Shown in pieces: positions 24,657-62,378 of a stretch of 64,000 nt of DNA. Made by a program: the position numbers and the translations under genes. A model generated the notes under the pieces. It worked only from the letters and a program-made list of their open reading frames with translations. It did not search any database and had not been told where the DNA came from. Origin of the DNA: Sipunculus nudus (lineage: Eukaryota > Annelida > Sipuncula > Golfingiida > Sipunculidae). The number at the start of each line of letters is the position of its first letter. Within the stretch, counting starts at the first letter, position 1. Location: NCBI GenBank assembly GCA_026874595.1, contig CM049316.1, positions 53,885,676-53,949,675 on the forward strand. The letters run 5' to 3'.

Positions 24657-24782
24657 ATCAGCTTGCTGGTTATTGAAGCAGAACACGGACTGTTCACTTC
24701 TGCCACAGCTCATGAAGGCCGAGTCGTGACAGGCCAGGGTGTGCGTAGTTGTACCTTGTGATATGTCCCTCCTGTACCCTCT
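24657..24782 (-). CDS. candidate exon near the 3' end of the cysteine-rich gene (unresolved)
   Basis: On the minus strand a strong acceptor (T-run then atacag, ending at 24783) precedes a frame containing THTLACHDSAFMSCGRSEQS and further Cys. The frame is followed by a good donor GTAAGC (just below 24657), or runs on to a stop at 24618. Read in the phase-1 frame expected from the preceding module, the same acceptor gives a different short tail ending in a stop. The ACxxSxxxSC pattern faintly recalls SUEL-type lectin domains, which is weak. This could instead belong to another transcript. Confidence 0.3.
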
Positions 24783-25592
24783 CTGTATAAAAAAAAACAA
24801 TCTGTTGTCATATATGATCTGAGAAGGCATTCAGTCCTGGTCTCAGGCCTACAGAAATTCTTGTAATTTCAACTCGTGAACTCTAGAGGAGCTTTAAGCC
24901 AAGTGTCCGCCAACTCCCGGTTCAATTTTTAATGTCTAATTGCAAGTTTCTCAGGAATAATTTAATTTGTCAAGACTTGTTTGCCAAGATACTACGACTG
25001 TTTGTGAGGATGGAAAAACAGAAAACTTGTCAAGTTGACTCTTCATGGAAGGTGGCACACATAATAGATACCTACTCACCACACATGCTCTCATCAGTCT
25101 ACGGTAAAACAAATGGCCATGCACTGATCTCTGCCGATATTTAGGGTGTCACAGTGCATTCACAAAATATAACTTACAAAAGTTGCCAATGTATTGCAAA
25201 TCAAGTTTGTAACACCCATGGACATTTTTGATTGACGGATAAAAAGAGAAATACATGCAGTGAAAAGTATATCTGCATAATATGAGTGGCTGATGACGCA
25301 CCAATTATTTACCTGTACCTACACCTGCCTCAGAGTTATACCCACCCAGCAGAAAGCATTCTGTCCAAGGCCAGGGCATGCTACTATATCAACAGGACTA
25401 GTGCAGTTTTCCTCGGGACCAACGCAATTGTAACAGGCAGCTGTAACGGAAAATTAAAGTTAAAACAAAAACCAATTTTAACAGACCTCTGGCCTTAAAA
25501 GTCAATAGTTCAAAAGTTGACAGTTCTTGATTAACGATAATCACATAGCTCGCATCCGATGAAGGAGAAATGTGATCAGTGAGGACACTAAC

Positions 25593-25694
25593 CTGTACAC
25601 GTTTTACCATCATTTATTGGTAAATATCCAGTCTTGCAGGTTTTACAGAACGCCGGAGGACTGACGTAATCACTACATCCCGGAGTGCTTTCCG
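25593..25694 (-). CDS. cysteine module exon 28 (most 3' confident)
   Basis: Acceptor atttta-tag type (tatag at 25695-25699) and donor GTTAGT, phase 1-1. Four Cys: C-x9-C-x2-C-x12-C, ending CKTGYLPINDGKTC. The next exon downstream is not settled. Confidence 0.78.
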
Positions 25695-28128
25695 CTATAA
25701 AATCAGTGAGAAATAGTGAGAAATGGAATAATCCTGGTATTCAGAGCATGTTAATTATTATATACTTTTTAATACAAATATACATAGTGTCACTCACAAT
25801 CTGCATTAACCAACCAAAACACAAAACCCTACGTAAGATTACTTAATTTTAAAAAGAATTTATTTTTCCAGACAAAATATAATGGAGATTGGGTGACCTT
25901 GATATCGCTTTTGACCTAAAAGATCGCTTCTAGGACATCGCTTCATGTCATTTTGGCTTTGCCTTTAAACTATCAAATGGTATTTATTAATTCAGTTTGT
26001 AATAAAGTTGTGCTTAAAGTGTTAAGAGTTGGTGTAAAATTACAGAGTAAACGAAAACCCAAAACACAATGGCGATTCTGTTTTATTCAATATCACAGTA
26101 TAAACTCTTACCTCTCGTCAACCGCGTGAATTGACCATACGGTCACTACCATTACAAATTTTCATCATACGATGTATTTTCATGAAATTATCAAGTACGT
26201 TTACCACTTATTGGTTCCAGAAGCTTTTGGAGTGGCGGCGAATTATATAGGACTTAATTGCTAGTGTGTTTAGGGAGTAGGAACCACTTTACACCTGTCA
26301 AAACTAGCACGTATTTTACATACCCAGACATTTCTGACTGGCATCTCCCAGTTGATAGCCATCTTGACACCGTATACAACCTGACGGTGAGCAGAGGGCA
26401 CAAAACGGAACAAGATCATGACAGGCTGAAACAAACGGAATAATGTAAAAAATTGAACAGTGATACCGCGGCAAAAGGACGTGTATATTGTTAAGGTTCA
26501 CCTCAGGGGCGGATTCTGGATTTAGAAAAAAAGGAGGGGTCCAAGCTAGGATGACTAATGATAAAAACTAAAAAAGGGTCTCCAGGTCCGGGAGGGGGGG
26601 GGGCAGGCCGCGAATATTGGCCTGAACTCTTCGAAAGGTTGCGGCGACGGGAAGGGCGATATTATAAACGTAAGAATTGTTTTATTTCGTACAAGAAGAA
26701 CTTGAAATTTAATAATTCATTTTAGCTGCAAAACCTGAAGAGAATTTTTATAGGGTATATTTAATAGAACAAATTGCAAATTTGATATAAATGCTATAAA
26801 GCATAAATATCTTGTAACTTTTAAAAAGTTTGCAATTTTGAGATGGCGGTTATGACTTTTGTGTTGAGATTTCACATGTGTGGCCATGACAGTTGAAATG
26901 TTGACAGGGATATATCTGAACTGACTATCCTCAAACGTTGCATGATAACTGAGATATTATTGGGTATGATGAATACCATCACTACAATAATGACATGTAG
27001 GATGCCACAGTCTAAAAGTAGTGTAATTGCTGCTATGAGCTGAAGATGGACAAGATCCCTTGATTAGATCTCTAGATTATCTCAGGATATTTTATTATGT
27101 AATAATATATACATGTATAATTATGTTCGAACCTTATCTGATGAAGATACAGATGATCTCCGGGCATCTCTCTAAACCACTTATAATACAACTATAATGA
27201 CATTTGTTTATGTCTGTGTTTACTTTTAAAATTAAGATTTCACACCATATATATTAAAGTTACCTGGTTATGGTTCACTTTTAAGTTTTCATCATTTAAT
27301 GGCTTTCTAATTCATTTAAACAAAATGTGTTTACAGACTCAGCGTCCAATGAATATCCTAGCAAGATTGAAATATATGAAATATCATAGAATATCTTTAA
27401 AACGTTAGCATAATTGCAAACAAATTTATGTTTTCCTATATTAAAATTATAGAATAACAAAAATACAAATGACCTGATTTTAGCCAGATTTATGCATGTC
27501 CAAAATATAGTGCAAATCAGTACAGCCTTTGCTGAAAAAAGCTGTTATAGGTGTGTCTGGAATTATTGAAATATATAGGCCTTTTATCAATGTGTCTTTG
27601 GCAGTTCTGAAAAAAATGGGCTTAGAGCAGACAAACAGGTGACTTCATCAGCGTAGAATGATTAACTATGAAACCTTAGTTAGTTAGATCTGTTATTTCG
27701 CTCCTCAGACTGGCTCGGTTGGAGGGGACTAAGTCCCCCGCCCCGGCCGTCTCCTAAGCGTGGAGTAGTGCCATAAACCTGTTTGTTGTTTTGGTTCAAA
27801 CATAATGGTAGATCAAAATAACTATGTACCCATCAGATCAAGTCTGTAAGGTCTTGGCTTCGAAATAAGCAATAAGGCCGGTTATTGGGATGTATTTAGG
27901 GGCCACGAGTACCTGTTCTCTGATAAAGGTCCGCTATCCGAACTACATAACTTTATCAATTTTCTTTATTTTCATAATTAAGCTTACTATTTGGAATATA
28001 ATTGATCTCATTTATTATGTGAATTGTTTAATTATAATTCTATATCAGACATTGAACCTGAAATAGACTGAAATAAGGTCACTTTCGTAACAATCAGCAG
28101 AACGGCTGGATATTGTACACGCGTCTTT

Positions 28129-28187
<59 letters not shown>

Positions 28188-31100
28188 GGAATATTTTTAA
28201 CATGGTATATTGCATTATTATATATATATGGAATATTTTTAACATGGTATATTGCATTATTATTATATATATATGGAATATTTTTAACATGATATATTGC
28301 ATTATTATATATATATGGAATATTTTTAACATGGTATATTGCATTATTATATATATATGGAATATTTTTAACATGGTATATTGCATTATTAAATATATAT
28401 GGAATATTTTTAACATGGTATATTGCATTATTATATATATATATATATATGGAATATTTTTAACATGGTATATTGCATTATTATATATATATATGGAATA
28501 TTTTTATCATGGTATATTGCATTATTATATATATATGGAATATTTTTAACATGGTATATTGCATTATTATATATATATGGAATATTTTTAACATGGTATA
28601 TTGCATTATTATATATATATGGAATATTTTTAACATGGTATATTGCATTATTTTCGCGTTATTTACTACTGAAATTTCAGGTGAATAGTTTTACAGTTTG
28701 CTTTTACAAATTCCAACTTATCCATACCGTGAGAAGACACTATCTGGGGGACTTTGTTTGGAAGTTTTGGTCCCACCTTTTGATACACTGATAAATACTT
28801 CTATTTTTTTTTTAAGTTTTAATTTTGGGACACAAAGAATGGACGAATTAGTCCATTATATATTTACTTAAAGAACATTATGACATAAAGAAATAAATAA
28901 ATTTTGGCATTAAAGGGTTCAAAAAGTTTCTATGACAACCTTACCTTTGCATTCGCTCGTCTGAGTATGAAGGTAGTACCCGTCATAGCATGCTGAACAC
29001 GTCGGGTCCCCTCTGGTGTACTGACATCTCTTACACAGTGGGTCACAAGCTGCGGAACACGCAGGAGCAAAGTGTGCACCTCCTCAGTTCATTTGAATTA
29101 ATGACATGATACATTGAACTTTGAAACTTTAACAATTCAACCTTTTAACAGATGACATTCATTGTTCATCACTGCCTCATTTCCAGTCACGATGTATTAA
29201 AAATGTATGAGATATATCAAGAATAAATTATCAGACTTTCCAAAACACAAAAGGTATACATTTACAACGTTGAAATGCCAATATTCCCAAGTCCCCATGT
29301 TTATACACTGATGATGGACATGCATAAGAGACAATATATCTGCAGTCGTAAGAGGACCAATGGTTATACAGAGGGATCTTGTGTTCATTTATTATGGTTA
29401 CAGCTAAACAAAACTTCGATTCGTAAAACACACTCCATTAGTGGTAATAATCAAGACAAACCTAGACAAATTCACTATCCTGCCATATAGATAAAGATAT
29501 TTGAGGGGGTATAAAAATATCACCTTTGGAAAAAGGGAAGAATAAATCATCTTACCGTCACAAACATAAGAGCCATTGACGGGATGCAGGTAACTGCCTT
29601 GGGTACACTCTAGGCACGTCTTCCCGTCAGAGGAACAGTCTATACAACGCTCCGGGCATGCTGTGAATTAAACTGAATAATCACAGGCAATACACGCATT
29701 CACTTCGAACCAAACTAATCGTCAACATTCACTTTCTAAAGCATTATTTTTAAAAAAAATCCTCAGCACATGGGACACCATGGGGAACCATATATCCCAA
29801 ATAACTGTCACACAATTGAGGGGTTTTCACTTTATTTCATACGTTCAATTATATCCAAAGAAAAAAAGTAAAAAAGTAGAGATAAACTAATCACTTATGA
29901 TGGCAACATTTGTCTGTAAGTTTGTCGGTTCTGAACATCATAAGGACTTGCCTGTACACGTGGACATTTCGTTTAGGCTGTATCCAGCGGAACAAACCAC
30001 GCATGTTTCACTACTCCTGCATGAAACACATCCCTGGATACAGACTGGAATAAAATACAAACATACACACCATTACACGTGTACAAGTTATACTTACATA
30101 ACAGGCTGCATATCGTGGGTAAGTTACAACAGACAACCTCAAACAAAAATAACGAGTACTATAATAAGAATGAATTTCAAGGAAAAGTCCTTTTATTATT
30201 ATGCATGTATTGTGCAGGGCTCAAGATTAGAGTTGGAATTTATTTTTTATGGTTAGCGCGCTGGTCGATATACTAGTACAGGATCTGAAATCCAGATCGC
30301 ATTTTCGCGGGAATATGTTTTATTTGCTGCCCAGCGTCACCCGATCCAATATAGACATTACATACTAGCAAATGTGTATACACAGCCGTGTAATTCATAA
30401 ATTTGTTCACAATCTACATTAACACTTGTTTAATTGTCGGATCCCACTGTTTGGTTGAAAAGTTAGCCAATTTCTAGCCATGTTGCAAATTGATAATGAC
30501 AGTTTAACTAGTTTTTTTTCAATTTGATTGACAGCCGTGAGCTGATTAAACGCTTACACGAGCACGTGTAGGTATTGGTGTCCCAGAACATGTTGGTTGC
30601 CGCACATTTCTCACAGGTTGTCGAGGAAACACACTCAGTACACCCATCACCGCAGACTGCAAAGAAGCCACTCGATTTTAAACTGCGTGACCAGATGCTA
30701 TTTCAAAATAACTGTACATATTTCTTTTTCGATTTTGATGATGAACAAGATCGTTCATTGCACTTTCGTGGCCGTATGGAATTGCGATAAGTAAATACTG
30801 GTCTGCAGATGTGTAAGCACCTTGAGTCAGGGTTATATATAATATGTATAATATATCAGTAATTTTAGGTAACTATATTCCACACTTGGTATATATGTAT
30901 AAATAAAGAGGTTCATGCATATTCAAGGCAAAGCAAGATTACAATCAATCTAATTAACATCCTGTACAATTATAATATTGGTTTCGCTGATATACACGCG
31001 ATAACGCTAATAATACAATCGTTTACTGAACTATGTCAATATATTATGTGTTTACTTTAAGTTACATATATACATCATTCTTTTAATTAGAAATTAACGA

Positions 31101-34100
31101 TGTTTAGAATTTCTCGTCAACAGATGTAGATCCACACTTCTCAGTGCAGTATAAACCTACAATCTGAATGGAAGCTCACACTTACCGTGGCAAGCGTTCT
31201 CCACGGGATCATAGTAAGTGCCCTTTCGACATTGGAAACACCAGGTAGCGCTGTTGCATTCCAAGCATCTCTCCCCGCCAGGACAAACTAGATAATACAT
31301 GTCCAGTTTACATGTATATAACAGAGTTATACAGCAGCATTATAAAGCATACAGAAAGGTATCCAGCAAATGTATACAAAAAAAGATAAAGAACTGTATA
31401 CAGTAAAGTACAAAGATACATGACCGTTTAAAGAATACATAACAAAAATGCACAGTAAAATTATACTCTGAATGTATACAACAAAAGGTACAAACATCAG
31501 TGAAAAATAGTAACATAACCATCAGATTATATATGGCGCAAAAACCGTGTAGTCGGCATAGCCACGGTAACTCTCGCATGTATCTGTCTAAGTGTTTCAG
31601 ATAAATGTACCTTGAATTAATCAAAAATAATTTTATGATTACGCACGCAAAACACATGATAAATGATATTCATACTACTCTGTAAATATTTATAAGTTAA
31701 TAATTTTATGGGTAATTCTTCAAGGCGTGTTATATGTAAATTTACAATATCAGTCATTGTAAATTAGAAAAATCTTCCTCATAGTTAAATCAGTGCCACG
31801 TTTTAATGAAACCAGAAGGAGCATTTTATTTTTCAAAATATAAGAGTGTAAATCGTTGGAAATGCGATAAGTGTAAATACTTTAACATGTAACGTAGCAA
31901 CACACAGTGTTTTTTTGTAGAGTAAGGGTTATCTCCAGTGATTCATAATCTGACAGATGTTGAACAAACAATTTAACGTATCAGGGAGTATCTTGTAGAG
32001 GGATACTTGTATAGTGTAGTGTGAAGAGTTATGGGGACGGGTTCAGGACGTACCTTTACACGTGCCGTTTGAATAGTAATACCCAGACTGACAAGCCCGA
32101 CACTTTGACTTCCAGCTCGGACAAGATATGCAGTGTGCATCTTCACAGGCTAACAATAAAATAATAATAATAATAATAATAAGAAGAAGAATAAGAAGAA
32201 AGAGAAAAAAAAAATAACTTTCAACCAATATCTACGGATGTACAAGGAGTGCAGTTTGAAGGGAAAAAAATCAACACAGCAGTTCATTTCTAAAAAGGTC
32301 GTTTATTTACAAATAAATGTACCAAATTATATTTTGACTTCATATTTATAAGTACATTAAAAGCTTACCTTCACAGACCTCCAGTGAGAATCCAGACGTA
32401 CAGGTGTGACATGTCACGTGACCGTTCTCAACGGAACATGTTTTACATTCCTGTCCGTCAGTTTCTGATTACATGATAAACATTGTTAACAATAATTCAT
32501 ACCTTCTTGGAGAACTTTTCGCAAAAAGTTTAAGAGACTCAAGGAGGTTTATTCTGTTAGACAAAACAAATTGACACTGGGTACAAGCGTTCTCGCGTGG
32601 ATTAACTGTATAGTGTTTATTTTAATATATTCGACTTCCGTATCATGATGCATTTCACTTAGCTTTGAGCCAGATCTTCACCTGCATTTTCTATAGAATT
32701 TATGTGATTTCTGGCTTATTCTGCGTACATATTAATGAATTACACAATTAATTCCTGTAACGGAATTTTCCATAATCCCTCTATCAGGGATGTATGATGT
32801 TTATCTACAAGTTATTAGTGGACATGGATCGTGCATCAATGTTGACGAACAGAAAACCATGTAACCTGAGGATGTTGGTTGCTTTGTACGTCCTTTGCAA
32901 AACCTTTTTCCGCCCGACTTGCCGCCAGGTGTCCAATTTGAATGTATTTGTATTATTTTGTTATATACACTGGCTTTATTCTGGCGTGTTTTAAAAACAA
33001 AAAGGTGCCAGGGATTATTTTCAGTTAATTAACATCAGATATCAGTATAAGTCACTTTTAATATGAATGAACTCTTCTAATGTGTGAGATTTTTAACTTA
33101 CTTATACAAGTCCTGGTGTTGACATCTAAGCAGTATCCGTGCGCGCACACAGCACAGCTGTGCGAGTCTGCGCACTCCTCACATCCGGTAATGCATGCTA
33201 GAAAGAACCATTATCAGAGGCATTGATAAAATCATATTAATGGAACATGGTCTGTATGTTTGATATATGTAAATCAGTGTAAAATAAATGTTCCTGACCA
33301 AAAGAAGCACAGGCCGAACAAAGAAAGTGTATTCAGTTTGAATATATATTAATCGGTAGCACAATATATAGGCCCGTGAGTATGATGGAGTGATCTGAGC
33401 TCGCGGTTTATTGTTAAGCACTATGCCACTGATCATGTATTGAAATATGATGGCCAATCGCACTCCTTCCCCGTAATCTCATGAGAATAAGGCCTTATAT
33501 ATTGAGCTTTTGCCGCAAATCTGCATTTATTACTACTTGTTAGCCACATATCCCATATCAATTTCATCGTACCTGCGCACCTGGCTTTATATACGTAATA
33601 TCCGCTGTAACATTGTTTGCAACCTCCTGATGTCTCACAAACCTGGCACTTGCTGTCACAATCTGCAAAATAATGCTTATCCTGAAGATATTACGGCAGG
33701 GTATTGTTTAATATAACACTAGAAGAGAAAAGATCACATGTCACGAGCCAGAAATATGTTACAGTCGTTAAACCATCTTTATTGAAAACACTTGAAAGAC
33801 TTCCTGTTCAATGAAACTGGCGGACCTGCGGCGATAAACTATATCAGAACACGAAACAGTTCCTATAACGGTGCATTATAATTTGTTGAACCTGTTCAGA
33901 TTGAGAAGAGTAACAGATCACGTACCGACACACTGAATCAGCTGTACATCCCAGTATTTGAAGCTCTCACATGAGGAACAGTCGGTCCAGCTGTTACAGG
34001 ACAGGCAGCCGGGTGAACAGTCTACAAATACATCTCATCATCCAAGTAAAAACCAGGCGACTCATTCAGGGAGGAGGGGATTATAGGGGTTTATGAGTTT

Positions 34101-35617
34101 ATTTCTATACCAGTATTTGGGTCAAAATGTTTTGTGGGTAGACTTTCTTGGGTCCCCCATTATGCACAACCATTGTATTCAATTTTGTTTTCTTTTTCTT
34201 CTTTGTTCTGTCTGTGTTTGTGGTAGATTTTAAATATGTCTGATGTTCCAAAACTGATATTTGGGCATAAGTGACCTTCTAACTGTGTTTGACCTTGGCC
34301 TAGGATATTCCCCATTATCGCGCAGCTGCGGGAGGGGGCGAGGGGGTTCCAGTGATCGCTCGGTGATTGCAAACATTTGATTTGTAATTACAATATATAA
34401 CAGAATACTGAAACAAAGGCTTCTGTTACTGTACATTATCGACATTTCTTATGTTTAGATTGATATAGCTACTGAATAAATATGTCATTGGATTTATTTC
34501 TTTTTAAGAATTTCCATCTTGAAACAGGCATGTATATGACGATCGACTGCTATATGACTCTCATAATTGTGCAGTATGCTAGTAAAGTAAGTAATTCAAT
34601 ATACGTGGTTAAATTATAAATATATAGTTTTTATATGAAGCAGTAATTATTCAAATAAACAATTTTGATTAATAAAAATACTATTGTCACGAGACTGTAT
34701 ATTCATAAAATTTCAGCTTAAAATAAAAATATGCTTTCTAATGAATGCAAGCCTCCGCCTTTCACTGATTCGGCCCATATTCACAAATGTATTCGTGCAC
34801 AAAAGACAGTAAATTTGATTGAATTCCTTGATGGTGTTCCTGAATCCGGGTCACGGATCCACACACCATAATCTTTAAGATTCTACATTGACCTGATCCG
34901 GAAATGCCCTGAAATTTTAATGAGATTTTGTTCATGATTGCGTGGGTTATGTTGCGAATAATAGCACAAACACAAACACACAAACATACGGACGTGGATG
35001 AACGCATACCCTCCCGGCGGAGACCATAACCATTAGGTATGACATTTTACAAAAAATGGAGTGTGAAGTGTGTTTTAGGTTTATTTTGTTTCGTTCCGCC
35101 TGGTTTGTGTCAGCTGAGAGTACTTACCTTCACAAGATATCGCTGGCGATCTTGAAAGATATCGCGGTCCTGAGCACTCCTCACAGCTCTGTCCATCTGT
35201 ACATCTTTTGCAGTGCTTCAGACACTCTGCAAACATACATTAAATTATACTCTTTTTACATGATTTTACAAGTCCTCAAAAAGTTTTTAAGGGGCATATG
35301 TTCGCAGTACAGCTAAGACATATTTATTACTTAAATTTAAGACTACCACGGTACACAGAACCGAATGTGATACTACATAGTGTAAGTGTAATTTCCTGGC
35401 ACGATTATGAGATTTAACGAACCCCTGCAGGAGCCGTCATGAAAGTATACTCCCTGAGAGCTGGTAGGTCCGCAGGTTAAACACATGGCTTCCTGATTCA
35501 GTACGGAAACACTGGTCAGGGGACAAACTGCAATAATAATGTTAATAATAATAATAATAATCATAATAATAATAATAATGAACTATTCAATAACGAAACA
35601 CTAGTTTAAACTGAAAT

Positions 35618-35670
<53 letters not shown>

Positions 35671-36040
35671 CCTGCGTTGGTCCCTATAATTTTGTTAGAT
35701 TTTTATTTTACATAAATATACACCAAGGAAAAGCAGCCCCTATACTGTTACACTGTTCACCCTGTGTCCGGCCACCCTATTGCTGCCATGGCCAGTTCAA
35801 GTAATTTACAATTATCACTACAGGTGGCATCTGTGTGCTCAATTACTAGTATAGGATTTAATGAGGATTCTCATGTAGTCCCTACCCCTAAGTGATAGTG
35901 GGGCTCCCTGGAGAAAAAAGTAAACTATTTGCACCCCACAGAAGGAGCCAAATGATCAGTGAAGATTTATAAACATAATAAAAAAATGAGAAAAAATTAT
36001 TCCTCGACCTGTTGCAGGTCTAATATATATATAGTTATAT

Positions 36041-36098
<58 letters not shown>

Positions 36099-39000
36099 CC
36101 CGAAAGTTTTGTTTTTCTTCAGCAGAATTTTTGGAGGTGCATTGTTTGACCTGTAGGACTATTTTTCATTTAAAATAAAAAATCGAAACTCATGACGCAT
36201 AGTTAATTAGGACAAGCAAACTTTAATAAACGTTCAAGCAATTACAACACGATGAAAACAATAATAACAGATAATCGTGCAGGTAACTAGCCACTTATTC
36301 AACTGATCATTTAAATGAATAACTAGTCAATAGTCTACAAGGATATTCTCCATGTCAGAGGATACACGTAATATTAAATCAAAGGTAAAGCACATACAAC
36401 TATATCACAAAGGCTCTGTGACCATGTAATATACAAACGAAGCATGAGACACATTCATCATCGACACGTCCATGTCCAGGTTCGGAAGTTAACAATGATT
36501 CATCTTAACGAACCATGCCTTACCCTGACACTGGTTGTCTTGCAGAAAATATCCAGGTATACACGATGTGCACACGACACCCAGGTTTGTGTTATGAGAA
36601 CACTCTCTACAACCAGGCGGACAAGCTGTAAATCAAAAGGGAAACAGTCAATTGTCCAGTCAGCAGGGGTGACGTGTTACCTACGGCTCTTATTGAAAAC
36701 ACGTGCAGGCTAGTAAAAAAAGTCATTGCAAGTTTTTTTTAGTCTTATTATGTTTAAGATTTAACCCTTAAGAGCAAGATAATATATGATGGCATGCTAA
36801 ATGCCGTTTATTTTATAGCGTTATCGGATTTTTATATGCAGATTTTGACAGATATTTTTTTAGATAAAAATATAAAGATTATACTTTGATTTCAATTTAT
36901 TTACTAAAATATGTTATCAAAAATTTTTGTGAGAACTTACCATTACAGATATCGTTTGAGAAATACCTCCCGGTACAGTTGCTACAGTCAGTCTCGTTCT
37001 TTAACGAACAAACTGGGGAGTAGTAAAGTCAATATTTCATATGAATATAGGTACAAACACCTTAACAATGTTGTATGAAATTGTAAGGCGTGAAGGTCTG
37101 GGATGGTAAACTAAAATTCTTGAAATATATGTCTAAGGATTCTAAAGTTAAAACCAACGGTCCCCTGGCATATATGTTTTGTTAATACCATCGGACCAAC
37201 GGCATTTCTATTTTGTTATACCCCCAGCCAACAGGCATCAAAATATGGTTTTTGCCATCTAATCAGCCGAACGGGAAGCTTCCCAGCCTCAAAATGGCTC
37301 AGTCCAGTCCTGTGTTCAATCTGAAGACATTATGATATAAACTGAGATAAATAAGAATTGAAGTTAAACCTAAAAGTGACAGGATATTGTTTTTAACTAT
37401 TGATAATGCAAAAATGAACGAAAGTTGTCTAGAAGATATTGGATTAAAGTAAAAGAAGGCCTATTGGACTTAGTACCATTCACAATTTATTGTTATCACT
37501 GGAAGTTACTTGTTTAATAAAGCAAGACAATAAATCCTAAGAGTATTTCAGACAAGTTGATTTTAAATGTAATTTGATAGACACTTTGTATCTCCTTTTT
37601 GTCTTTGTCAGTTTTGTGCGTTTGTCATAACTTACTGGTGCAGGTTCGGGACACGTGATCAAATATGGTTTCTGGTGGGCATTTGTCGCATCCATTTACG
37701 CCGCCGTTATGACACTCAAGGCAGTTACCAGGGCATTCTGGGTAAAACAAATACAAATAAGACATCTGACTTGGATATTTTGCTTAGTGGTAGCAACATA
37801 GGCGACCAGTTCAGATGTACCGAAGTCAGTGGAAATGTATGAAATCAAATTAAAACAACAAATTTGTATTAATTTGTTTATAAATTCCTGGGGACTGGAC
37901 ACAGTAAGACCTCCCGAGACTCGGTTTTGAAATCACACCTCGATTGCCAAAATATATTCATGTTCAATGTACAATTTAAAGCCTTATTTCTGATTTATAG
38001 AATGCAACGTTTAATATTTAAAATAACAGTAATTATATAAATTTTTCACACTAAAAGGATATCTCTCTCCGTAAGCCTTTAAAATCTCCCTCCTTCAGGC
38101 TTCAAACTCATATCTTGAATCAAAATTTTAAAAAGGCAGTATTTCATTCCTTGAACAACGATGTCAGTATCATTTTTGTATAATTCCAGGAAAATCGTGA
38201 AATTCAACCGGATGATTTGAGTTATTTATTTATTTTTTTTTTGGGGGGGGGGGGGGAGTAATCATTAACACTCGTATTCATCTGGTATTTGGTGATTTAA
38301 AAAAAAAAAACCGCGGTTTCATCCCTATAATCACGATATACCATAATCTTATATATTCTGTGGATGTGTATGTGACGTCACCTTCACAGTTTCCGTTATG
38401 CCAGGCTTTCTTGCATTGATTACACTTATCCTCGGAGTCCATGGGAACCGACAAACAAGCTAAGAAATGAAAAAGATCATTTTTGTTCTTTATCTACAGA
38501 ACAAATGAATGTTGCACAATATATGTAGGAATTTTAAATATTATACAATATTAACTAATAATGCCTGTATATGAATCATTCATATTCTGTTTGCCTCTAT
38601 ATGCAACAGCGAAATGTGAATAAATAAATTAGCTAGAAATGAAAAAAAAGTATACCTCGCATGAATTTGGTAAGAGAATTAAGTATAATACAATACAATG
38701 TAAGCCATACCTTTTATCTGAACAAAGCATAAATCTATAGATCTGGTCGAGAGACTGTGTGTACGTTTTAGTTAAATAAAATGTGCATTTAAAACAATTT
38801 TTTTATATTAACCGACAGTGACAGAGATGTCTTAAAATGGCAATGTCACACCTTGACAGTCGCCCTCCATGGTGACATATCCGTGTTCACATCGAGTACA
38901 GTATACTCTCGGTGGTCCGTAGATAGGGTTGACGACGTCACAGGCTTCACACCGGTCAGGACAGGCTGTGTGAACAATAAATAATCAGTACTTAAACGGA

Positions 39001-44849: not shown

Positions 44850-44913
<64 letters not shown>

Positions 44914-50684: not shown

Positions 50685-50736
<52 letters not shown>

Positions 50737-56700: not shown

Positions 56701-59700
56701 TCAAGTGCTCACACAACTACATCTTGGTCATGTGGGTATAGTAAAGATGAGACGCAAGCAAGGAGCTTTGGTGGCCAATCTGGATAAGGAAATCACAGCA
56801 ATGGTAAAGCAGTGCCAAGGATGCCAACAGTGCAGAACGCGCCTTTGCCGGTTGTTTTGCACAGATGGAATTTCCAGAATTTCCATGTAGACGAATACAT
56901 TTGGATTACGCGGAACCTTTCATGAGACATATTTCTGGTTGTTGTCGACGCATACAGTAAATTGCTTGAAATTATGATTGCGAGATCGACATCTGCTGAT
57001 GTAACCATCACTACGCTGAGTTCACTGTTTGCTTCCCATGGTCTTCCTGGACAGTTAATCTGAGACAATGGGACCCAGTTCACCTCAACTGTTTTCAAGG
57101 ATTTCCTTAAGAAAAAAATGGAGTAAAACACTTCACAAGCTCTCCATACGAACCTTTTACAAATGGACTGGCTGAACGTCCAGTCGTTTAAGTAATCGCT
57201 TCGTGCTTCCAATCGTGACTCTGGTACTCTGCAAAAGAAGTTATAGTCTTACCTGCTGACATAATGTAATGCTCCACACTCGATCACAGGGATCGCTCCA
57301 GCAGTTCTCTTGAGAGGGAACCGGTTACGCACTCGGCTGGATCTGCTTGAACCAAGTGTGCGCAACACATTTGCTTACAAACAGGCGGACATGATTATTG
57401 GCAGGGGAGGAAGTAAAGTGCGCGATTTTGATATTGGAATATCTTTGTTAGTGCGTGAATATCGAAATTGTGACAAATGGAAATCTACAGTGGTGACTGA
57501 AGCAAACTGGACCAGTAAGCTACAAAGTGGATGTTGGCCATGGATTAATACGGCGACATCATCAAGATCAGATCAGATCAGAAATTTAGTGCCTTATACT
57601 GAATGTGAAAATCCATAGAGTGTTGTGTTAGATGGCGATCCGGGGCCTTGTGATAAAAGTGCTCCTACTGATATTATTGTTATCTCGAGTACTATTGTCA
57701 GTGAGAAGTCTGTGCCCAAGACTGCTGCGGGGACACCTAGACCAAAACCAAATGAGCGTGGTATATCAGTCGATTTACCAATTATAAGTGATACCAGTGG
57801 TTCGGAGGAGTGAAAAACCCCCAGGAAACCAGTAAACCAGAAACCAGAAACCAGAAACTGAACTTGTAAACATTAAAGGGCCGAATCACCTATAAACCAT
57901 GTTGAATTAACACTAAAAATAGCCCCTTCCCTTTAAAATTAATATGTTCCTGTCATAATATTGCCTTAAAACCGTTTGCTTACTCCTGTAATCGAGAGTA
58001 TTTTTTCACATTTTTTTTAACGGTTTGAACATGCCCTTTCACGGTTTAATTTTTTTAAACATTATTTTTATAATTAAAAATTACATATTTGACTCATTTG
58101 ACGTCTTAGGATTATTTTCACGATTTGTCCAAATTCACATGTAGCCGCCTAACAACCCACCATCTACAGAGATCAAAAAAAGTAAACAATAAATACCTCC
58201 TACCTCAACAGGGATAAAAATAAAGTATATTATAAATACCCCCTGCCGCTACAGGGATAAAGAGAAAGAAAATAAATACCCCCTACCTCTACAGAGAACA
58301 AGAGAAAGTAGAGATTAAATACCCCCTACCTCTACAGAGAACAAGAGAAAGTAAACAATGAATGCCCCTACCTCTACAGAGAACAAGAGAAAGTAAACAA
58401 TGAATGCCCCTACCTCTACAGAGAACAAGAGAAAGTAGAGATTAAATACCCCCTACCTCTACAGAGAACAAGAGAAAGTAGAGATTAAATACCCCCTACC
58501 TCTACAGAGAACAAGAGAAAGTAAACAATGAATGCCCCTACCTATACAGAGAACAAGAGAAAGAAAACAATGAATGCCCCTACCTCTACAGAGAACAAGA
58601 GAAAGTAAACAATGAATGCCCCTACCTCTACAGAGAACAAGAGAAAGTAGAGATTAAATACCCCCTACCTCTACAGAGAACAAGAGAAAGTAGAGATTAA
58701 ATACCCCCTACCTCTACAGAGAACAAGAGAAAGTATAGATTAAATACCCCCTACCTCTACAGAGAACAAGAGAAAGTAAACAATGAATGCCCCTACCTCT
58801 ACAGAGAACAAGAGAAAGTAGAGATTAAATACCCCCTACCTCTACAGAGAACAAGAGAAAGTATAGATTAAATACCCCCTACCTCTACAGAGAACAAGAG
58901 AAAGTAAACAATGAATGCCCCTACCTCTACAGAGAACAAAAGAAAGTAGAGATTAAATACCCCCTACCTCTACAGAGAACAAGAGAAAGTAGAGATTAAA
59001 TACCCCCTACCTCTACAGAGAACAAGAGAAAGTTAACAATGAATGCCCCTACCTCTACAGAGAACAAGAGAAAGAAAACAATGAATGCCCCTACCTCTAC
59101 AGAGAACAAGAGAAAGTAAACAATGAATGCCCCTACCTCTACAGAGAACAAGAGAAAGTAAACAATGAATGCCCCTACCTCTACAGAGAACAAGAGAAAG
59201 TAAACAATGAATGCCCCTACCTCTACAGAGATCAAGAGAAAGAAAATAAATATCCCCTACCTCTACAGGCGCCGCTGTACCATCCCTTGTTAGGGCCGCA
59301 GTCCAGGCAGCTGTCGGGTTCAACGCAGTGTACACAATTTTCAGGACATTCTGGTGATGAAATAATGAAAGGAAACCGTTTCATGGGTTATTTCTCAGTA
59401 TTATATATCAGAAACAATTTCATACATTATTTGTTTACTGAGAGTACAGTGCCTTCAATGTGAATTTGTGATGTTTTTTTTTTTAAGATTTTCAAGATTT
59501 TGGTGGACAGTATAGCGGATGTGTATGCTTTGCCTCAAAACATGAAGTTTATATCTTGACATCTTGAATATCTTGAATACTGTAGAACCGGAAATTTTCT
59601 CGAGCATGTAATTTTAGCAAATTTCACTAGTTTACCTTGCGAGTTAAATTCGCAAAAACTAAATCAGAAGCGGATCCAGTTGGGGGGGGGGGGGTGCCCC

Positions 59701-62378
59701 CCTTTTTTTCCCTCTGAAGCAACCTTTTTTAAGGGTTTCAGACAAATTTTTTGCGGCCTTGACCCCCCCCCCTTTTCTGAACCGGGGACTTTTTTCACGG
59801 TTTTCATTAGTCCTCCTGGGTTGGACCCCCCTTTCCTAAATCCTGGATCCGCCCCTGTTAATGCTCGCAAAAACTATATGCCATACATGCATGTCCAGTG
59901 CAAGAATATGAGGTTTAATTTATCTAGACCTTTTTAAATTAATTCTATGTATCTATTAAATCAGTGAAAGACACGCCTTGGAATATATTTTTATTGTCGT
60001 AAAAAACGGGGCATTGCGAGGGCATTGTTAGAACACTAATTATACGGGGATACCCCACACACAGCCTGCCTGATTGTGTAAGCACAATTAAATACATAAA
60101 TGATCAGGGCAGTCATCCATAACCAGGCTTGGTTTTTTTTAACGTATATGTTCCATCGAAGATTTCTGCAAGCATGTTGGCAGTTGCGTATGTCTGTTTG
60201 TGGATGTCTGTGTTTTTCCGCACTCTACTGGCCACAATCGATCTGAAACTTACATAGTTGATTGATAATCAAAAATCCTGGAAGACTATTGTTTCTGGTC
60301 AATATAAATCAACGGTCAAGGTCATCGAAACGTGGATATTTTATTTTCGTCTTTACTTCGTCAAAAGCCTATATACATAAATTATAGCTCATCCTGTTCC
60401 TCTATGCTTTCTCCATGAGATGGTCTAGTCAATTGTCATCTGCGATATGTGTCATTGTGTCAATATGTCCGTCTATTTGTCACTTTCAAATTTGTCTCCC
60501 TGCTTGTTTTTTCGTCTGCCATATGGCATTCGACAGGCCAGACTTTCTTTAGCAATCCCTCTGAATGTTATACTGTGATAGAAAACCCTAAAGTCCTAGA
60601 AGTCTGATGTCTTTTAGAGTAAATAGATCAAATGTCAAGGTCATTAAAAACCACAAATTTTCTTCATATCTTCTTCAACACTAATCGTAGCCGCATGAAC
60701 TGTTACTTATTTTATTCGCCATTCCAGGGCCTTCCTTCTTTTTTTCTGATGTGTAGCTGCATCAATCTACTGTTACCATGGTAACGCATTTTATTGGGGA
60801 AAATTCATGATATTCTAAAATATGGGGTCTTAATTTTCTAACTTTGTCACTGTTAAAGCTAGAGAGATCTATTTTTTTTTTGCTTCAGGCAGCATTGGAT
60901 CAGTTTAACTCGAATACCAAATCTCGCGAAATCTCGCACCGTTTCTCGTAAAAGGAGATATTATAAGGTTTCATTTTTTTGCTCTACAGACCACAATTCT
61001 CAAGCAATCGCTTTGAAAAATTTTACAGTTGATAGACAAACAAAACTGCTATATACTTTTTGTGTTAATTGAGATAGGTCGAAGGTCAAGGTAACCGAAA
61101 ATTCCAAAAATATTATTTTGCTCATTACTTCGTCAAATATTTTCCTATCTACACAAACTATTGCTCATTTAATGCGTCTATGCATTCCCCATTTTGCGGT
61201 TTGGTCACCTGTCATCCAGTAAGTCATCGGCTTCTGTGGCTAGGGGTTGAGCACAGGACTCATAGCCGGGAGATCGTGAATTCTAATTTCAGCCGAGGCG
61301 GTGAGATTTTTCACGGTCGACCCCCATGCACCCAGGGTGAGCGCTCTGCAGGCTAAATGGGAAGGCCGTGTCCAACGGCCATGTTTCACTCACAAATGAG
61401 TGCGCCTTTTGGGGGTTCCTTGGTGGTATGACTCAGCAATTAGGACGATTACGCACCAAGGGCCCGCAGGTGCAGTAGTCACCGGGCCTGGTTGACAGCC
61501 AGGATATAAACTGAGAGGAAGTGTGAATACTGCCCTGTCACGAAGTCCGAAACCGGAAAGGAATTCTGCAGATGTGCATATATATAGTTTAGTTTAAAAA
61601 AAAATGGAGGTGGTTAACTCATAAAAAAAAATATTTAAAAAATGTTGTGTCAGTCTGTCAGTATGTCTGTCTGATCGTCTGTGGTTGTCAACTTTTGCTG
61701 CCTGCTTGTTCCTTGGTGCGACATAAGTCATTCTTGAGTCCACATTGTTTTAACAATGTTTGTAAAAGGCATACATTTAAAATAAAATTTAGGAAATATG
61801 TTCTGTCTGTCTGTCCGTTCGTCCACGACTTTTCAGTATTAGCAAAAGTACATAAACGTGTCAGTGTTTCTGCTTTCCCAAAACATTCCTCATAAAAATG
61901 ACTGTTTTCACATGTACCCCTGTCTTCCTGTCTCTCTGTCTGTCTGTTATATTTCAATTTTCGGCAAGCGCTTCGACCTATGGTCGTCTAGTTTATTTGT
62001 TTTTTGGTGTGAAAAATGTAACCACTAGCAATTCGCGACAATTACATGCTCGCGAAAGGTCGGACCTTGCCAATTCGCGAAATTTGAGTTTAGCATAAAA
62101 AATATGTTCTTCAGTATTAAAATCCGTCTTATACAAATGAGAATTCGATTATCAATGTATACAAATTTAAGAAAAACACACAGATGCGTTTTACGTTTGA
62201 CCAAAGAGGTCAAATAGTTAAATCTGCATTGATAATTATTCTGCATGCGTGTGTGGCCGCATGTGTGCGATATCAGCTGACAAGCTCATCTTACCATTAC
62301 ACGTCATTTGCCACCAGTACTGCCCTCTGCCGGCACGGCTGCACATCCCACATGTCTGACTGTTTACCTCCGGGCATC
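25593..62378 (-). CDS. cysteine-rich modular protein, one module per exon (28 exons seen; both ends unresolved)
   Basis: Twenty-eight minus-strand exons of 72-120 nt are listed separately. Each starts with two bases of a split codon and ends with one, so every intron is phase 1. Each exon encodes one module: either six Cys (C-x3-C-x2-C-x5-C-x2-C-x10-14-C, often CxxCxxGYxL before the last Cys) or four Cys (C-x7-13-C-x2-C-x8-19-C). Together they give about 900 residues. The spacing resembles furin-like/growth-factor-receptor cysteine-rich repeats, as in PCSK5-like and receptor extracellular regions, and not EGF repeats. Disulfide-bonded extracellular or secreted location is inferred. Signal peptide, membrane segment and any catalytic domain must lie beyond 64000 or in the unresolved 3' end. 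Function and ortholog are unknown. Confidence 0.85.
26324..26425 (-). CDS. cysteine module exon 27
   Basis: Acceptor tttgtttcag and donor GTATGT, phase 1-1. Six Cys: C-x6-C-x2-C-x4-C-x2-C-x12-C, with CQDGYQLGDASQKC. Confidence 0.84.
26504..26660 (+). mobile_element. short TIR element copy, CAGGGGCGGAT end (truncated)
   Basis: It begins CAGGGGCGGATTCTGGATTT and shares ggggtccaagctaggatgac, ggtctccaggtccggg and a G-run with the copies at 49990 and 52398. The right terminus is not found. Confidence 0.65.
26661..28130. other. AT-rich intron of the cysteine-rich gene
   Basis: No exon with the module pattern and no clear repeat were found here. Confidence 0.45.
28131..28655. repeat. AT microsatellite followed by a 42-bp tandem array
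   Basis: An (AT)n tract at 28131-28182 leads into about eleven copies of a 42-bp unit, tatatggaatatttttaaca then tggtatattgcattattata. Differences are mainly in the length of the internal AT run. It lies in the intron between module exons 26 and 27. The array seems to have grown from the AT tract, since each unit contains a short version of it. Confidence 0.95.
28945..29049 (-). CDS. cysteine module exon 26
   Basis: Acceptor gttccgcag and donor GTAAGG, phase 1-1. Six Cys: C-x3-C-x2-C-x8-C-x2-C-x12-C, with CYDGYYLHTQTSEC. Confidence 0.86.
29556..29660 (-). CDS. cysteine module exon 25
   Basis: Acceptor aattcacag and donor GTAAGA, phase 1-1. Six Cys: C-x3-C-x2-C-x6-C-x2-C-x14-C, with CTQGSYLHPVNG. 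Confidence 0.85.
29952..30044 (-). CDS. cysteine module exon 24 (GC donor)
   Basis: Acceptor ttattccag. The donor reads AG then GCAAGT, a GC-AG intron. Phase 1-1, six Cys: C-x3-C-x2-C-x5-C-x2-C-x11-C, with CSAGYSLNEMSTC. Confidence 0.83.
30558..30656 (-). CDS. cysteine module exon 23
   Basis: Acceptor tctttgcag and donor GTAAGC, phase 1-1. Six Cys: C-x3-C-x2-C-x5-C-x2-C-x13-C, with a Trp in the last loop (NMFWDTN). Confidence 0.84.
31186..31287 (-). CDS. cysteine module exon 22
   Basis: Acceptor tattatctag and donor GTAAGT, phase 1-1. Six Cys: C-x5-C-x2-C-x5-C-x2-C-x12-C, with CRKGTYYDPVENAC. Confidence 0.84.
32054..32149 (-). CDS. cysteine module exon 21
   Basis: Acceptor ttattgttag and donor GTACGT, phase 1-1. 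Six Cys: C-x4-C-x2-C-x6-C-x2-C-x10-C, with CQSGYYYSNGTC. Confidence 0.84.
32158..32204. repeat. AAT/AAG trinucleotide microsatellite
   Basis: ataataataataataataat passes into agaagaagaataagaagaaa just upstream of module exon 21 on the minus strand. Read on that strand it supplies a long pyrimidine tract near the acceptor. Confidence 0.85.
32369..32464 (-). CDS. cysteine module exon 20
   Basis: Acceptor gtaatcag and donor GTAAGC, phase 1-1. Five Cys: the expected first Cys is absent, then C-x2-C-x8-C-x2-C-x8-C with CTSGFSLEVC. Exon 19 carries one extra Cys, so the two could pair across modules; this is inference. Confidence 0.8.
33102..33197 (-). CDS. cysteine module exon 19
   Basis: Acceptor ctttctag and donor GTAAGT, phase 1-1. 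Six-Cys pattern C-x3-C-x2-C-x5-C-x2-C-x12-C plus a seventh, unpaired-looking Cys in the last loop (HGYCLD). Confidence 0.84.
33573..33662 (-). CDS. cysteine module exon 18
   Basis: Acceptor attttgcag and donor GTACGA, phase 1-1. Six Cys: C-x3-C-x2-C-x5-C-x2-C-x10-C, with CYSGYYVYKARC. Confidence 0.84.
33926..34021 (-). CDS. cysteine module exon 17
   Basis: Acceptor atttgtag and donor GTACGT, phase 1-1. Six Cys: C-x3-C-x2-C-x5-C-x2-C-x12-C, with Trp in the last loop (FKYWDVQ). Confidence 0.84.
35128..35226 (-). CDS. cysteine module exon 16
   Basis: Acceptor atgtttgcag and donor GTAAGT, phase 1-1. Six Cys: C-x3-C-x2-C-x5-C-x2-C-x13-C. The 196-bp intron before it (to exon 15) is the shortest in the gene. 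Confidence 0.84.
35423..35527 (-). CDS. cysteine module exon 15
   Basis: Acceptor attattgcag is good. The donor is the poor GTTCGT at 35422, chosen because it preserves phase 1. Four Cys: C-x13-C-x2-C-x14-C. The exon may be inefficiently spliced. Confidence 0.7.
35622..35667. repeat. AT microsatellite
   Basis: Pure (AT)n in an intron of the cysteine-rich gene. An (AAT)n-like tract lies just upstream at 35530-35580. Confidence 0.95.
36041..36096. repeat. AT microsatellite
   Basis: Pure (AT)n between module exons 14 and 15. Confidence 0.95.
36524..36625 (-). CDS. cysteine module exon 14
   Basis: Acceptor gatttacag and donor GTAAGG, phase 1-1. Six Cys: C-x3-C-x2-C-x9-C-x2-C-x10-C, with CIPGYFLQDNQC. 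Confidence 0.85.
36941..37012 (-). CDS. cysteine module exon 13 (shortest)
   Basis: Acceptor actccccag and donor GTAAGT, phase 1-1. Four Cys: C-x7-C-x2-C-x9-C in only 72 nt, with TGRYFSNDIC. Confidence 0.82.
37636..37737 (-). CDS. cysteine module exon 12
   Basis: Acceptor tttacccag and donor GTAAGT, phase 1-1. Six Cys: C-x3-C-x2-C-x7-C-x2-C-x12-C. Confidence 0.84.
38382..38459 (-). CDS. cysteine module exon 11
   Basis: Acceptor atttcttag and donor GTGACG, phase 1-1. Four Cys: C-x10-C-x2-C-x8-C, ending KKAWHNGNC. Confidence 0.78.
38852..38965 (-). CDS. cysteine module exon 10
   Basis: Acceptor gttcacacag and donor GTGTGA, phase 1-1. Six Cys: C-x3-C-x2-C-x13-C-x2-C-x10-C, with an extended third loop and CEHGYVT. 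Confidence 0.82.
39541..40095 (-). pseudogene. deleted non-LTR retrotransposon (RT fragments plus C-terminal fragment)
   Basis: Minus-strand fragments in shifting frames: GDGIDCNNYH (about 40060-40090), LSIVERIFVVAAMVTLQTFA (about 39990-40050), RPDPHCGFCAGH (about 39950), then LRQLQEKNRKP and LCMAFADLTKTFD (about 39840-39910). These follow the order of the fingers/palm start of a LINE-type reverse transcriptase. At 39541-39630 the frame RYTDVSIRDLKLN then VDTWKSLA resembles the C-terminal end of the same LINE class. The middle of the RT, with the catalytic YADD, is absent, so it is an internally deleted, inactive copy. Confidence 0.72.
40096..42780 (-). other. probable further decayed repeat DNA next to the LINE remnant
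   Basis: This stretch is more GC/CpG-rich than neighbouring introns and has several broken frames on both strands. Upstream LINE sequence (endonuclease region) would be expected here, but I could not recognise any motif. Segment tttaaatgtagcatcacatc with following bases is directly repeated at about 41047 and 41100. Confidence 0.4.
43201..43320 (-). CDS. cysteine module exon 9
   Basis: Acceptor ccgtttcag and donor GTACGT, phase 1-1. Four Cys: C-x11-C-x3-C-x15-C. It is the only module with three residues between the middle cysteines (CEAGC), and the longest exon (120 nt). Confidence 0.8.
43901..43981 (-). CDS. cysteine module exon 8
   Basis: Acceptor atctatag and donor GTGAGT, phase 1-1. Four Cys: C-x8-C-x2-C-x9-C, ending DGRHWDGNDC. 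The shared YWDG/HWDG loop with exon 6 suggests recent duplication. Confidence 0.84.
44629..44779. repeat. tandem duplication of ~75 bp
   Basis: ggaggtggtcattcccacat through caacaccacgtctattttat occurs twice in a row. The first copy has a 4-base difference (acatgtcgttggtg against acatgttggtg). Confidence 0.95.
44852..44911. repeat. AT microsatellite
   Basis: Pure (AT)n about 60 bases long, between module exons 7 and 8. Confidence 0.95.
45080..45184 (-). CDS. cysteine module exon 7
   Basis: Acceptor cctttcag and donor GTGAGA, phase 1-1. Four Cys: C-x12-C-x2-C-x9-C, ending PNKFWLNGVC. Confidence 0.84.
46006..46086 (-). CDS. cysteine module exon 6
   Basis: Acceptor attcttgcag and donor GTGAGT, phase 1-1. 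Four Cys: C-x8-C-x2-C-x9-C, ending AGKYWDGTLC. It is very similar to exon 8. Confidence 0.85.
46964..47077 (-). CDS. cysteine module exon 5
   Basis: Acceptor tgttttcag and donor GTGAGT, phase 1-1. Four Cys: C-x9-C-x2-C-x19-C. This is the longest last loop in the series and carries GYGVYWVPS. Confidence 0.82.
48001..48084 (-). CDS. cysteine module exon 4
   Basis: Acceptor ttgattcag and donor GTAGGT, phase 1-1. Four Cys: C-x11-C-x2-C-x9-C, with Trp in the last loop (SIWYENAC). Confidence 0.82.
48692..48781 (-). CDS. cysteine module exon 3
   Basis: Acceptor attttacag and donor GTAAGT, phase 1-1. Four Cys: C-x13-C-x2-C-x9-C. A 10.5-kb gap filled with mobile DNA separates it from exon 2, so a module could have been lost or missed there. 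Confidence 0.82.
49632..49762. repeat. dispersed direct repeat of ~28 bp
   Basis: gaatgtgacacaatgtcaat followed by aaggacat occurs at about 49632 and 49734, separated by about 75 unique bases. No gene is seen here. Confidence 0.85.
49990..50197 (+). mobile_element. short TIR element copy (CAGGGGTGGATCC end)
   Basis: The left end is CAGGGGTGGATCCAAATTTA and the degraded right end is agatccgcttctg. The body shares ggggtccaacctaggaggac, a long G-run and ctccggacccc with its relatives. No matching target duplication is seen. Confidence 0.7.
50679..50736. repeat. AT microsatellite
   Basis: (AT)n with one aat interruption. A second short (AT) tract lies at 50800-50830. Confidence 0.95.
51590..51840 (+). 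repeat. candidate LTR of the Ty3-type element
   Basis: The segment between the polypurine-like tract and the gag-like start begins TGTCATG and contains an AATAAA at about 51791. A second copy after 57813 was not found, so the LTR call rests on position and the terminal TG only. Confidence 0.4.
51996..53880. mobile_element. non-autonomous TIR element inserted in gag (PIF/Harbinger-like)
   Basis: The left end AGCCGGGTGCTCACTACCCG pairs with the inverse of the right end, cggtaagtgagccgccggct. Subterminal cggccgattt motifs recur near both ends. TAA flanks both sides (51993-51995 and 53881-53883), matching the 3-bp TWA duplication of PIF/Harbinger elements. Joining the flanks brings the gag-like LLLTLI and GAKDFSN sequence together, which supports a true insertion. 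No transposase frame is seen. Confidence 0.78.
52398..52480 (+). mobile_element. fragment of the CAGGGGCGGATCC element
   Basis: taggggcgggtccaggattt, then aggaatccaacctaggagca and ggtccccaggtccgg, matches the left half of the copies at 26504 and 49990. It is truncated at its 3' side and nested inside the element 51996-53880. Confidence 0.6.
58171..59260. repeat. 42/43-bp tandem array carrying a copied 5' splice site
   Basis: About 25 units of ctctacagagaacaagagaa plus either agtagagattaaataccccc or agtaaacaatgaatgcccc. The two unit types are interspersed. On the minus strand each unit contains TGTAGAGGTAGGGG, identical to the end of module exon 2 plus its donor (59261/59260). The array forms the first 1.1 kb of the following intron. 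Confidence 0.97.
59261..59350 (-). CDS. cysteine module exon 2
   Basis: Acceptor catcaccag and donor GTAGGG, phase 1-1. Six Cys: C-x3-C-x2-C-x5-C-x2-C-x10-C, ending GWYSGAC. The donor site abuts the 42/43-bp array whose units repeat the same exon-intron junction sequence. Confidence 0.85.
59665..59857 (-). mobile_element. short TIR element copy
   Basis: It starts CAGAAGCGGATCCAG and ends tcctggatccgcccctg. Reverse orientation of the family is shown by gtcctcctgggttggacccc near the right end. It is about 193 bp with long G and C runs internally. Confidence 0.75.
60180..61140. repeat. three diverged copies of a ~100-base module
   Basis: Near 60225, 60535 and 60985 the order recurs: ccacaatcgatctgaaactt-like, gttgatagacaaacaaa-like, tctggtc/ttaatt, then a strongly kept caaggtcaaggtcat-like end. 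Copies are heavily diverged, so this is an old duplicated intronic repeat. Confidence 0.5.
61216..61580 (+). mobile_element. tRNA-derived SINE candidate
   Basis: The head tgtggctaggggttgagcac, ctcatagccgggagatcgtg and aattctaatttcagccgagg follows a tRNA with a CAT anticodon loop. A box-like sequence, anticodon arm and a B-box-like gatcgtgaattctaattt appear in the right order and spacing. It continues into a non-tRNA body and an A-rich end near 61590. Confidence 0.65.
62295..62378 (-). CDS. cysteine module exon 1 (most 5' seen)
   Basis: Acceptor ttgaacag and donor GTAAGA, phase 1-1. Four Cys: C-x7-C-x2-C-x13-C, with Trp-Trp before the last Cys (GQYWWQMTC). Confidence 0.8.

Follow-up and report, generated by a model that had tools for sequence, protein, structure and literature searches.

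What is encoded by the long run of small cysteine-rich exons in a 64,000-nucleotide stretch of the Sipunculus nudus genome (GenBank assembly GCA_026874595.1, contig CM049316.1), and where does the gene to which they belong begin and end? The stretch, called the window below, corresponds to C11:53885676-53949675 of the source genome. A preliminary description, made from its letters alone, had proposed a gene of at least 28 one-module exons. With a probability of about three in four, the exons belong to one protein-coding gene that encodes a glycosylphosphatidylinositol (GPI)-anchored cell-surface protein, composed of a signal peptide, 34 disulfide modules and a Ly6/uPAR (LU)-like domain with a GPI signal. 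The gene lies on the minus strand and spans about 45.8 kb. Its joined model has 38 coding exons, one for the signal peptide, 34 for the modules and three for the LU-like domain, which together encode 1239 amino acids, including 192 Cys, in a frame open from ATG to TAA. Introns 1-35 are all in phase 1 and the last two are in phase 0, so that 34 of 34 module exons are flanked by phase-1 introns. Two complete paralogues, A and B, share this organization.

Structure of the gene

Exons were sought by a discovery scan for units of acceptor, open reading frame and donor with cysteine-rich peptides, followed by a scan of the acceptors and donors near each module in any phase. All 28 exons of the preliminary description are present between window positions 62378 and 25593, in exactly the number and lengths proposed: each is 72-120 nt long, divisible by three and in phase 1-1. 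Their donors are GT in 27 cases and GC in one (exon 29952-30044). The exon edges had also been tied to the first and last Cys of each module. At the 3′ edge this is true throughout, each exon running exactly one codon and one base past its last Cys (28/28); at the 5′ edge the exon starts two bases ahead of a Cys codon in 21 of 28 cases and a few codons earlier in the other seven.

The proposal of a single gene with symmetric one-module exons is upheld by the open frame, the collinear paralogues and the purifying selection described below, but the proposed extent is too short. Upstream of the window's right edge are six extra 6-Cys modules and a 55-nt exon with a phase-1 donor, predicted from hydropathy and donor phase to encode the signal peptide MIRVRSTLLVLVMLGPVT. 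Window positions 62379-64000 contain no signal exon; it sits outside the window. At the other end, the supposed absence of any recognisable non-module domain is contradicted by the LU-like domain with its GPI-type tail, which begins 152 nt past the last module. An mRNA joined as modelled would contain the following exons, all on the minus strand, with window numbering continued rightward where needed.

70041-70095, minus strand: signal exon
64531-64623, 64858-64953, 65499-65591, 66163-66255, 66752-66853 and 69398-69532, minus strand: the six upstream modules
62295-62378, minus strand: exon 8, the first of the preliminary description, 4 Cys, phase 1-1, in collinear position with exon 8 of A and of B
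59261-59350, minus strand: exon 9, phase 1-1, with 6 Cys and a donor junction that forms the first copy of a minisatellite
48692-48781, 48001-48084, 46964-47077, 46006-46086, 45080-45184, 43901-43981 and 43201-43320, minus strand: exons 10-16, seven 4-Cys modules
38852-38965, 38382-38459, 37636-37737, 36941-37012, 36524-36625, 35423-35527 and 35128-35226, minus strand: exons 17-23, alternating 6-Cys and 4-Cys modules, an alternation kept in A and B
33926-34021, 33573-33662 and 33102-33197, minus strand: exons 24-26, the last with an odd number of Cys (seven)
32369-32464, minus strand: exon 27, with an odd 5 Cys, directly after the 7-Cys module
32054-32149, 31186-31287, 30558-30656, 29952-30044 (GC donor), 29556-29660, 28945-29049 and 26324-26425, minus strand: exons 28-34, 6-Cys modules
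25593-25694, minus strand: exon 35, 4 Cys, the final module
25346-25440, minus strand: exon 36, LU-like exon 1, entered in phase 1 and left in phase 0, starting AACYNC; same structure in A and B
24657-24782, minus strand: exon 37, LU-like exon 2, phase 0-0
24250-24378, minus strand: exon 38, LU-like exon 3, with CCTTPLCND, a hydrophobic GPI-type tail and the TAA stop

Introns of 10,479 nt (the longest, between exons 9 and 10) and 4,235 nt set blocks of modules apart and contain three weak signal-like candidates, as would be expected if two or more adjacent genes were present, for example a first gene of 15 modules that has lost its terminator and a second that comprises the remaining modules together with the LU-like domain. 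This arrangement is very unlikely. No stop or LU-like exon is seen between the blocks, each block enters and leaves in phase 1, and A and B keep the order from signal exon to LU-like domain and show no long gap at the corresponding positions.

The cysteine modules

Two classes of module are found among the 28 exons first described: 12 have 4 Cys and 16 have 5-7 Cys, 14 of the latter having six. The typical 6-Cys spacing is C-x3-C-x2-C-x5-C-x2-C-x10-12-C, and the typical 4-Cys spacing is C-x8-13-C-x2-C-x9-C, with an aromatic residue ahead of the last Cys. A comparison of the profiles of the two classes gives a probability of 32.8% over 16 columns. The 4-Cys profile has no sensible match in the PDB, and the predicted fold of a 4-Cys module has a pLDDT (predicted local distance difference test) of 70. 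Every module has an even number of Cys except the 7-Cys module (33102-33197) and the 5-Cys module (32369-32464) that follows it, a pair conserved in A and B. Because the two odd modules adjoin, their spare Cys residues may share one disulfide.

A strict filter, which requires phase 1-1, adequate splice scores, at least four Cys, a CxxC motif and Cys close to both ends, finds 23 clusters on the minus strand, all of which are module exons. It misses five of the 28 (numbers 7, 9, 20, 24 and 28 of the preliminary description). The plus strand yields no cluster, and neither strand yields one in phase 0 or phase 2; across 60 dinucleotide shuffles the mean is 0.12 and the maximum 1. Chance open reading frames can thus be rejected, given 23 real clusters versus none on the opposite strand and the shuffled mean. 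One result weighs against the assignment of all the exons to modules: with leave-one-out profiles, just 17 of the 28 beat the best background match by sequence alone, and the remaining 11 are supported by the shape of their exons and by the paralogues.

The modules are named Fu-like, not filed as furin-like members, since no score exceeds a curated Pfam cut-off. A Pfam search of the joined 1239-residue translation, from ATG to stop, finds no domain above its curated cut-off, and Furin-like_2 is matched by one of the 17 members of alignment A2, at E 0.24, also below the cut-off. Alignment A2 (17 rows) includes exon 35, which was later classed as 4-Cys; alignment A1 (11 rows) lacks that exon and A4 (12 rows) contains it. 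Rfam and tRNA scans give no matches, and NCBIfam gives nothing relevant. Self-BLASTN of the window detects only minisatellites, short local duplications and dispersed repeats. It joins no module exon to another, which rejects recent tandem exon duplication and indicates that the modules are old.

Relatives in the same genome

Genome searches covered 1.43 Gb in 153 contigs. The 6-Cys part retrieves matches on contig C9 and weaker ones elsewhere, and the gene has at least three relatives outside its own locus: A and B on C9 and a partial one on C3.

C9:76324519-76369228, plus strand: paralogue A, complete, 1437 amino acids, full open frame
C9:76405921-76374897, minus strand: paralogue B, complete, 1449 amino acids, full open frame
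C3:12770340-12770528: C3 relative, a single phase 1-1 exon that joins two modules, counterparts of A exons 34 and 35 and thereby of window exons 27 and 28
C3:12780224-12780322: C3 relative, a further module, best fit to exon 36 of A and B

Paralogues A and B form an inverted, tail-to-tail pair. Each consists of a signal exon of 55 nt, 41 modules and three LU-like exons. Both follow the phase series of the window gene, with 41 of 41 modules in phase 1-1, and at no module position do the two differ in their number of Cys. Compared with either, the window gene agrees in its first 8 and last 19 Cys classes, between which it has seven 4-Cys modules where A and B have 14. Seven modules have therefore been gained or lost between genes of the family without damage to the frame, which bears out the earlier suggestion that module gain and loss would be frame-neutral. 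Direct pairing support is modest: 23 of the 33 modules paired with A have the collinear partner as top match, and non-Cys identity between the window gene and A is 24.6% in register and 19.8% off register. The 33-pair alignment left window exon 5 and A exon 3 unpaired, where by Cys class no gap is needed.

The perfect symmetry of the module exons and the change of seven modules with the frame intact are also what would be expected of a splicing-diversity gene, in which routine skipping of individual modules would place many isoforms on cells. Such a gene is unlikely here. Symmetry is ordinary for extracellular modules, according to a 2019 review (PMC6600238); skipping only the 7-Cys or only the 5-Cys module would strand an unpaired Cys; and three genes share one order of Cys classes, which argues against free shuffling over evolution.

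In the C3 relative, which is known from part of its locus, the two modules of the fused exon meet exactly at the module boundary. Loss of an intron appears to be the simpler reading, because the three complete genes all hold an intron at that junction; such a loss would mean that the two exons were at one time spliced together. The further C3 module at 12780224 scores higher with exon 5 of the window gene than with exon 29. The spacing between the C3 modules is wide, and weak upstream matches occur at 12453535 (E 0.04) and 12743718 (E 0.055).

Other observations concern the relatives more loosely. GC-AG introns are found after window exon 31 (29952-30044) and after B exon 39 (C9:76378614-76378715), at different positions in the two genes. 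Between A and B, the synonymous substitution rate (dS) is 0.39 for exons 28-42 and 2.76 for exons 2-27, and some introns of exons 28-41 can also be aligned, a pattern such as is seen after gene conversion near the axis of an inverted pair. A match at C11:38055321-38056130 consists of Cys-rich CPPGxY-type repeats in long frames and was judged unrelated. Weak matches (E 0.05-0.4) on C7, C8, C16, C4, C9, C13, C2, C12, C14 and C1 align to LU-like exon 1 and the terminal modules. Each lies in a frame of 71-205 amino acids that contains a TAG, and they possibly represent an unrelated repeated Cys-rich family.

Selection on the exons

The exons show purifying selection. In the comparison of A with B, the proportion of nonsynonymous differences (pN) is below that of synonymous differences (pS) in 45 of 45 exons, and the ratio of nonsynonymous to synonymous substitution rates (dN/dS) is 0.15. 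Exons 28-41, where the two genes are more alike, have a pN/pS of 0.14; intron blocks that can be aligned, when treated as codons, have 0.61-0.73. The window gene has pN below pS in 31 of 33 modules against A and in 33 of 33 against B, with synonymous sites saturated in these comparisons. The identity of its modules to those of the paralogues is low, as it might be in a degenerate, non-expressed relic array whose exon shapes persist by chance, but 34 modules without a stop in a full open reading frame, together with the excess of pS over pN in nearly every aligned module, make a pseudogene extremely unlikely, and this possibility was rejected.

The C-terminal domain

The C-terminal domain of the window gene has 12 Cys. 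It starts with AACYNC and ends with CCTTPLCND, after which come a hydrophobic tail and the stop, and in the window gene, A and B alike the last Cys is followed by Asn. According to PMC6600238, an LU gene is marked by phase-1 flanks, a framework of 10 Cys, an Asn following the last of them and a GPI signal in the last exon. The domain contains the framework (10 Cys, the CC...CN end and the following Asn), a phase-1 intron precedes it, and a GPI-type signal is encoded in its final exon. Of all 15-residue stretches in the protein, the 20 highest in hydrophobicity fall within this tail and the signal peptide.

Sequence comparison points in the same direction at a lower level. The best PDB match is LYPD1, at E 0.2, aligned over the domain; the local alignment score is 85, compared with a mean of 43.7 (standard deviation 10) in 1000 Cys-preserving shuffles, one of which reached 85. 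A profile of the three genes finds nothing in the PDB below E 1 (E 1.1 or worse), although eight of its nine weak matches, none significant, are LU-fold proteins (BMPR1A, a related receptor kinase, LYPD1 and LYPD6B). No LU family of Pfam matches the domain. Since it carries the marks of an LU domain yet has no significant LU sequence match, it is called LU-like.

The weak PDB matches and the silence of Pfam would also suit some other Cys-rich domain with a GPI-type tail, as would its three coding exons, since an LU domain is typically spread over two (PMC6600238). This identification is nonetheless improbable in view of the CYxC start, the CC-x4-CN end, the phase-1 entry, the tail in the last exon and the prevalence of LU-fold proteins among the weak matches. 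A three-finger fold is the proposed structure of the LU-like domain. As genome queries, LU-like exons 1 and 2 retrieved only themselves although paralogues exist, which indicates that single-exon queries miss relatives.

A possible structure and function of the protein

The architecture of one gene running from signal exon to LU-like domain is well supported. To judge from the module families, its product may be a rod, anchored in the membrane and acting as a receptor or adhesion molecule. The modules would stack as a long, disulfide-laddered rod that keeps a putative binding surface away from the cell, with the LU-like domain at the membrane end. Evolution could tune the length of such a rod by adding or removing 4-Cys modules, a change that leaves the frame intact, since each module corresponds to a single phase 1-1 exon. 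If expressed, the protein would be a very long, disulfide-rich surface molecule. The balance leans slightly towards a broader interpretation, in which the genes represent a previously undescribed family in animals, whose giant products are GPI-anchored and serve as receptors or adhesion rods. In this interpretation 34-41 Fu-like and 4-Cys modules would stand on an LU-like cap at the membrane, the module order would predate the divergence of the family, the 4-Cys run, changed two-fold, would set the length, and the window gene would carry in addition an intronic array of donor junctions with a possible role in splicing.

The minisatellite at the exon 9 donor and other features

The array of donor junctions lies at the start of the 10,479-nt intron.

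58163-59268, minus strand: minisatellite in which each unit of 42-43 nt has a pyrimidine tract followed by the exon 9 donor junction, TGTAGAG|GTAGGG

The 13-mer TGTAGAGGTAGGG has 23 exact copies, exon 9 counted, all inside this minisatellite. In all except the first two copies the unit acceptors score 1.18, compared with a mean of 0.97 for the real acceptors of the gene, and the unit donors score 4, compared with a gene mean of 4.95. The minisatellite is absent from 130 kb around A and B. Read-through from exon 9 into the array was rejected, as the frame closes 9 residues in. In the tandem repeat of polyubiquitin UBC, as described in PMC10809524, each unit has an AG|GT that is usable in principle as a 5′ or 3′ splice site. 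The minisatellite likewise has an AG|GT site in every unit, and by this analogy its approximately 22 copied donor junctions could serve in dual-specific or recursive splicing. Unlike UBC, it is intronic and closed to translation in the exon 9 frame, and dual splice use is only putative.

Two features of the window lie apart from the gene, an open frame that is perhaps an exon of a neighbouring gene and a second minisatellite.

9458-10915, plus strand: open frame of 485 amino acids, acidic, Cys-poor, no Pfam match
1136-2514 (about 25 copies) and 6013-8728 (about 48 copies): two arrays of one 56-bp minisatellite

Comparison with known systems

No published description of this layout, and none combining 'furin-like repeat' with an LU term, is among the matches listed in literature searches. 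Several known systems resemble parts of it. The variant-specific surface proteins (VSPs) of Giardia have transmembrane tails and almost no introns. They resemble the gene in their CxxC-rich repeats, and VSP is the best Pfam match of the 6-Cys part. A VSP of the Giardia type was rejected, since this match scores 29.2 bits against a Pfam cut-off of 31.4 and the gene is rich in introns; its 37 introns and LU-like end set it apart.

The proprotein convertases PC5B and PACE4 have tandem furin-like repeats in their Cys-rich domains, as described in PMC9296861, and in this they are like the module array. Unlike them, the gene shows neither a protease nor a P domain nor a prodomain anywhere from its signal exon to its stop, Pfam detecting no subtilisin-like protease domain in the 1239-residue model, and its tail is of the GPI type rather than transmembrane.

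The Fu, furin-like or growth-factor-receptor Cys-rich modules of R-spondin have the same 6-Cys spacing as the modules here, and R-spondin and furin-like proteins give the top PDB profile matches and the top VIA superpositions. R-spondins have two such modules, whereas 34-41 occur here in a row, mixed with 4-Cys modules and scoring below the Pfam cut-offs. R-spondins also carry a thrombospondin/heparin-binding tail, unlike the present gene.

Ly6/uPAR proteins such as LYPD1 share with the C-terminal domain the Cys framework, the Asn after the last Cys, the phase-1 entry and the GPI-type tail in the last exon. The domain differs from theirs in being fused to a long array of unrelated modules, in being spread over three exons and in having no significant sequence match. 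LU domains in a non-homologous protein setting are rare, and the 2019 review (PMC6600238) lists few cases; an LU-like domain capping a long array of foreign modules would be a further example. The rule that one module is one phase 1-1 exon is already known, and this family provides a clear natural test of it, with complete genes in the same genome that keep the same order with 34 or 41 modules, selection acting on every exon of the A and B pair, and one relative without an intron between two of its modules.
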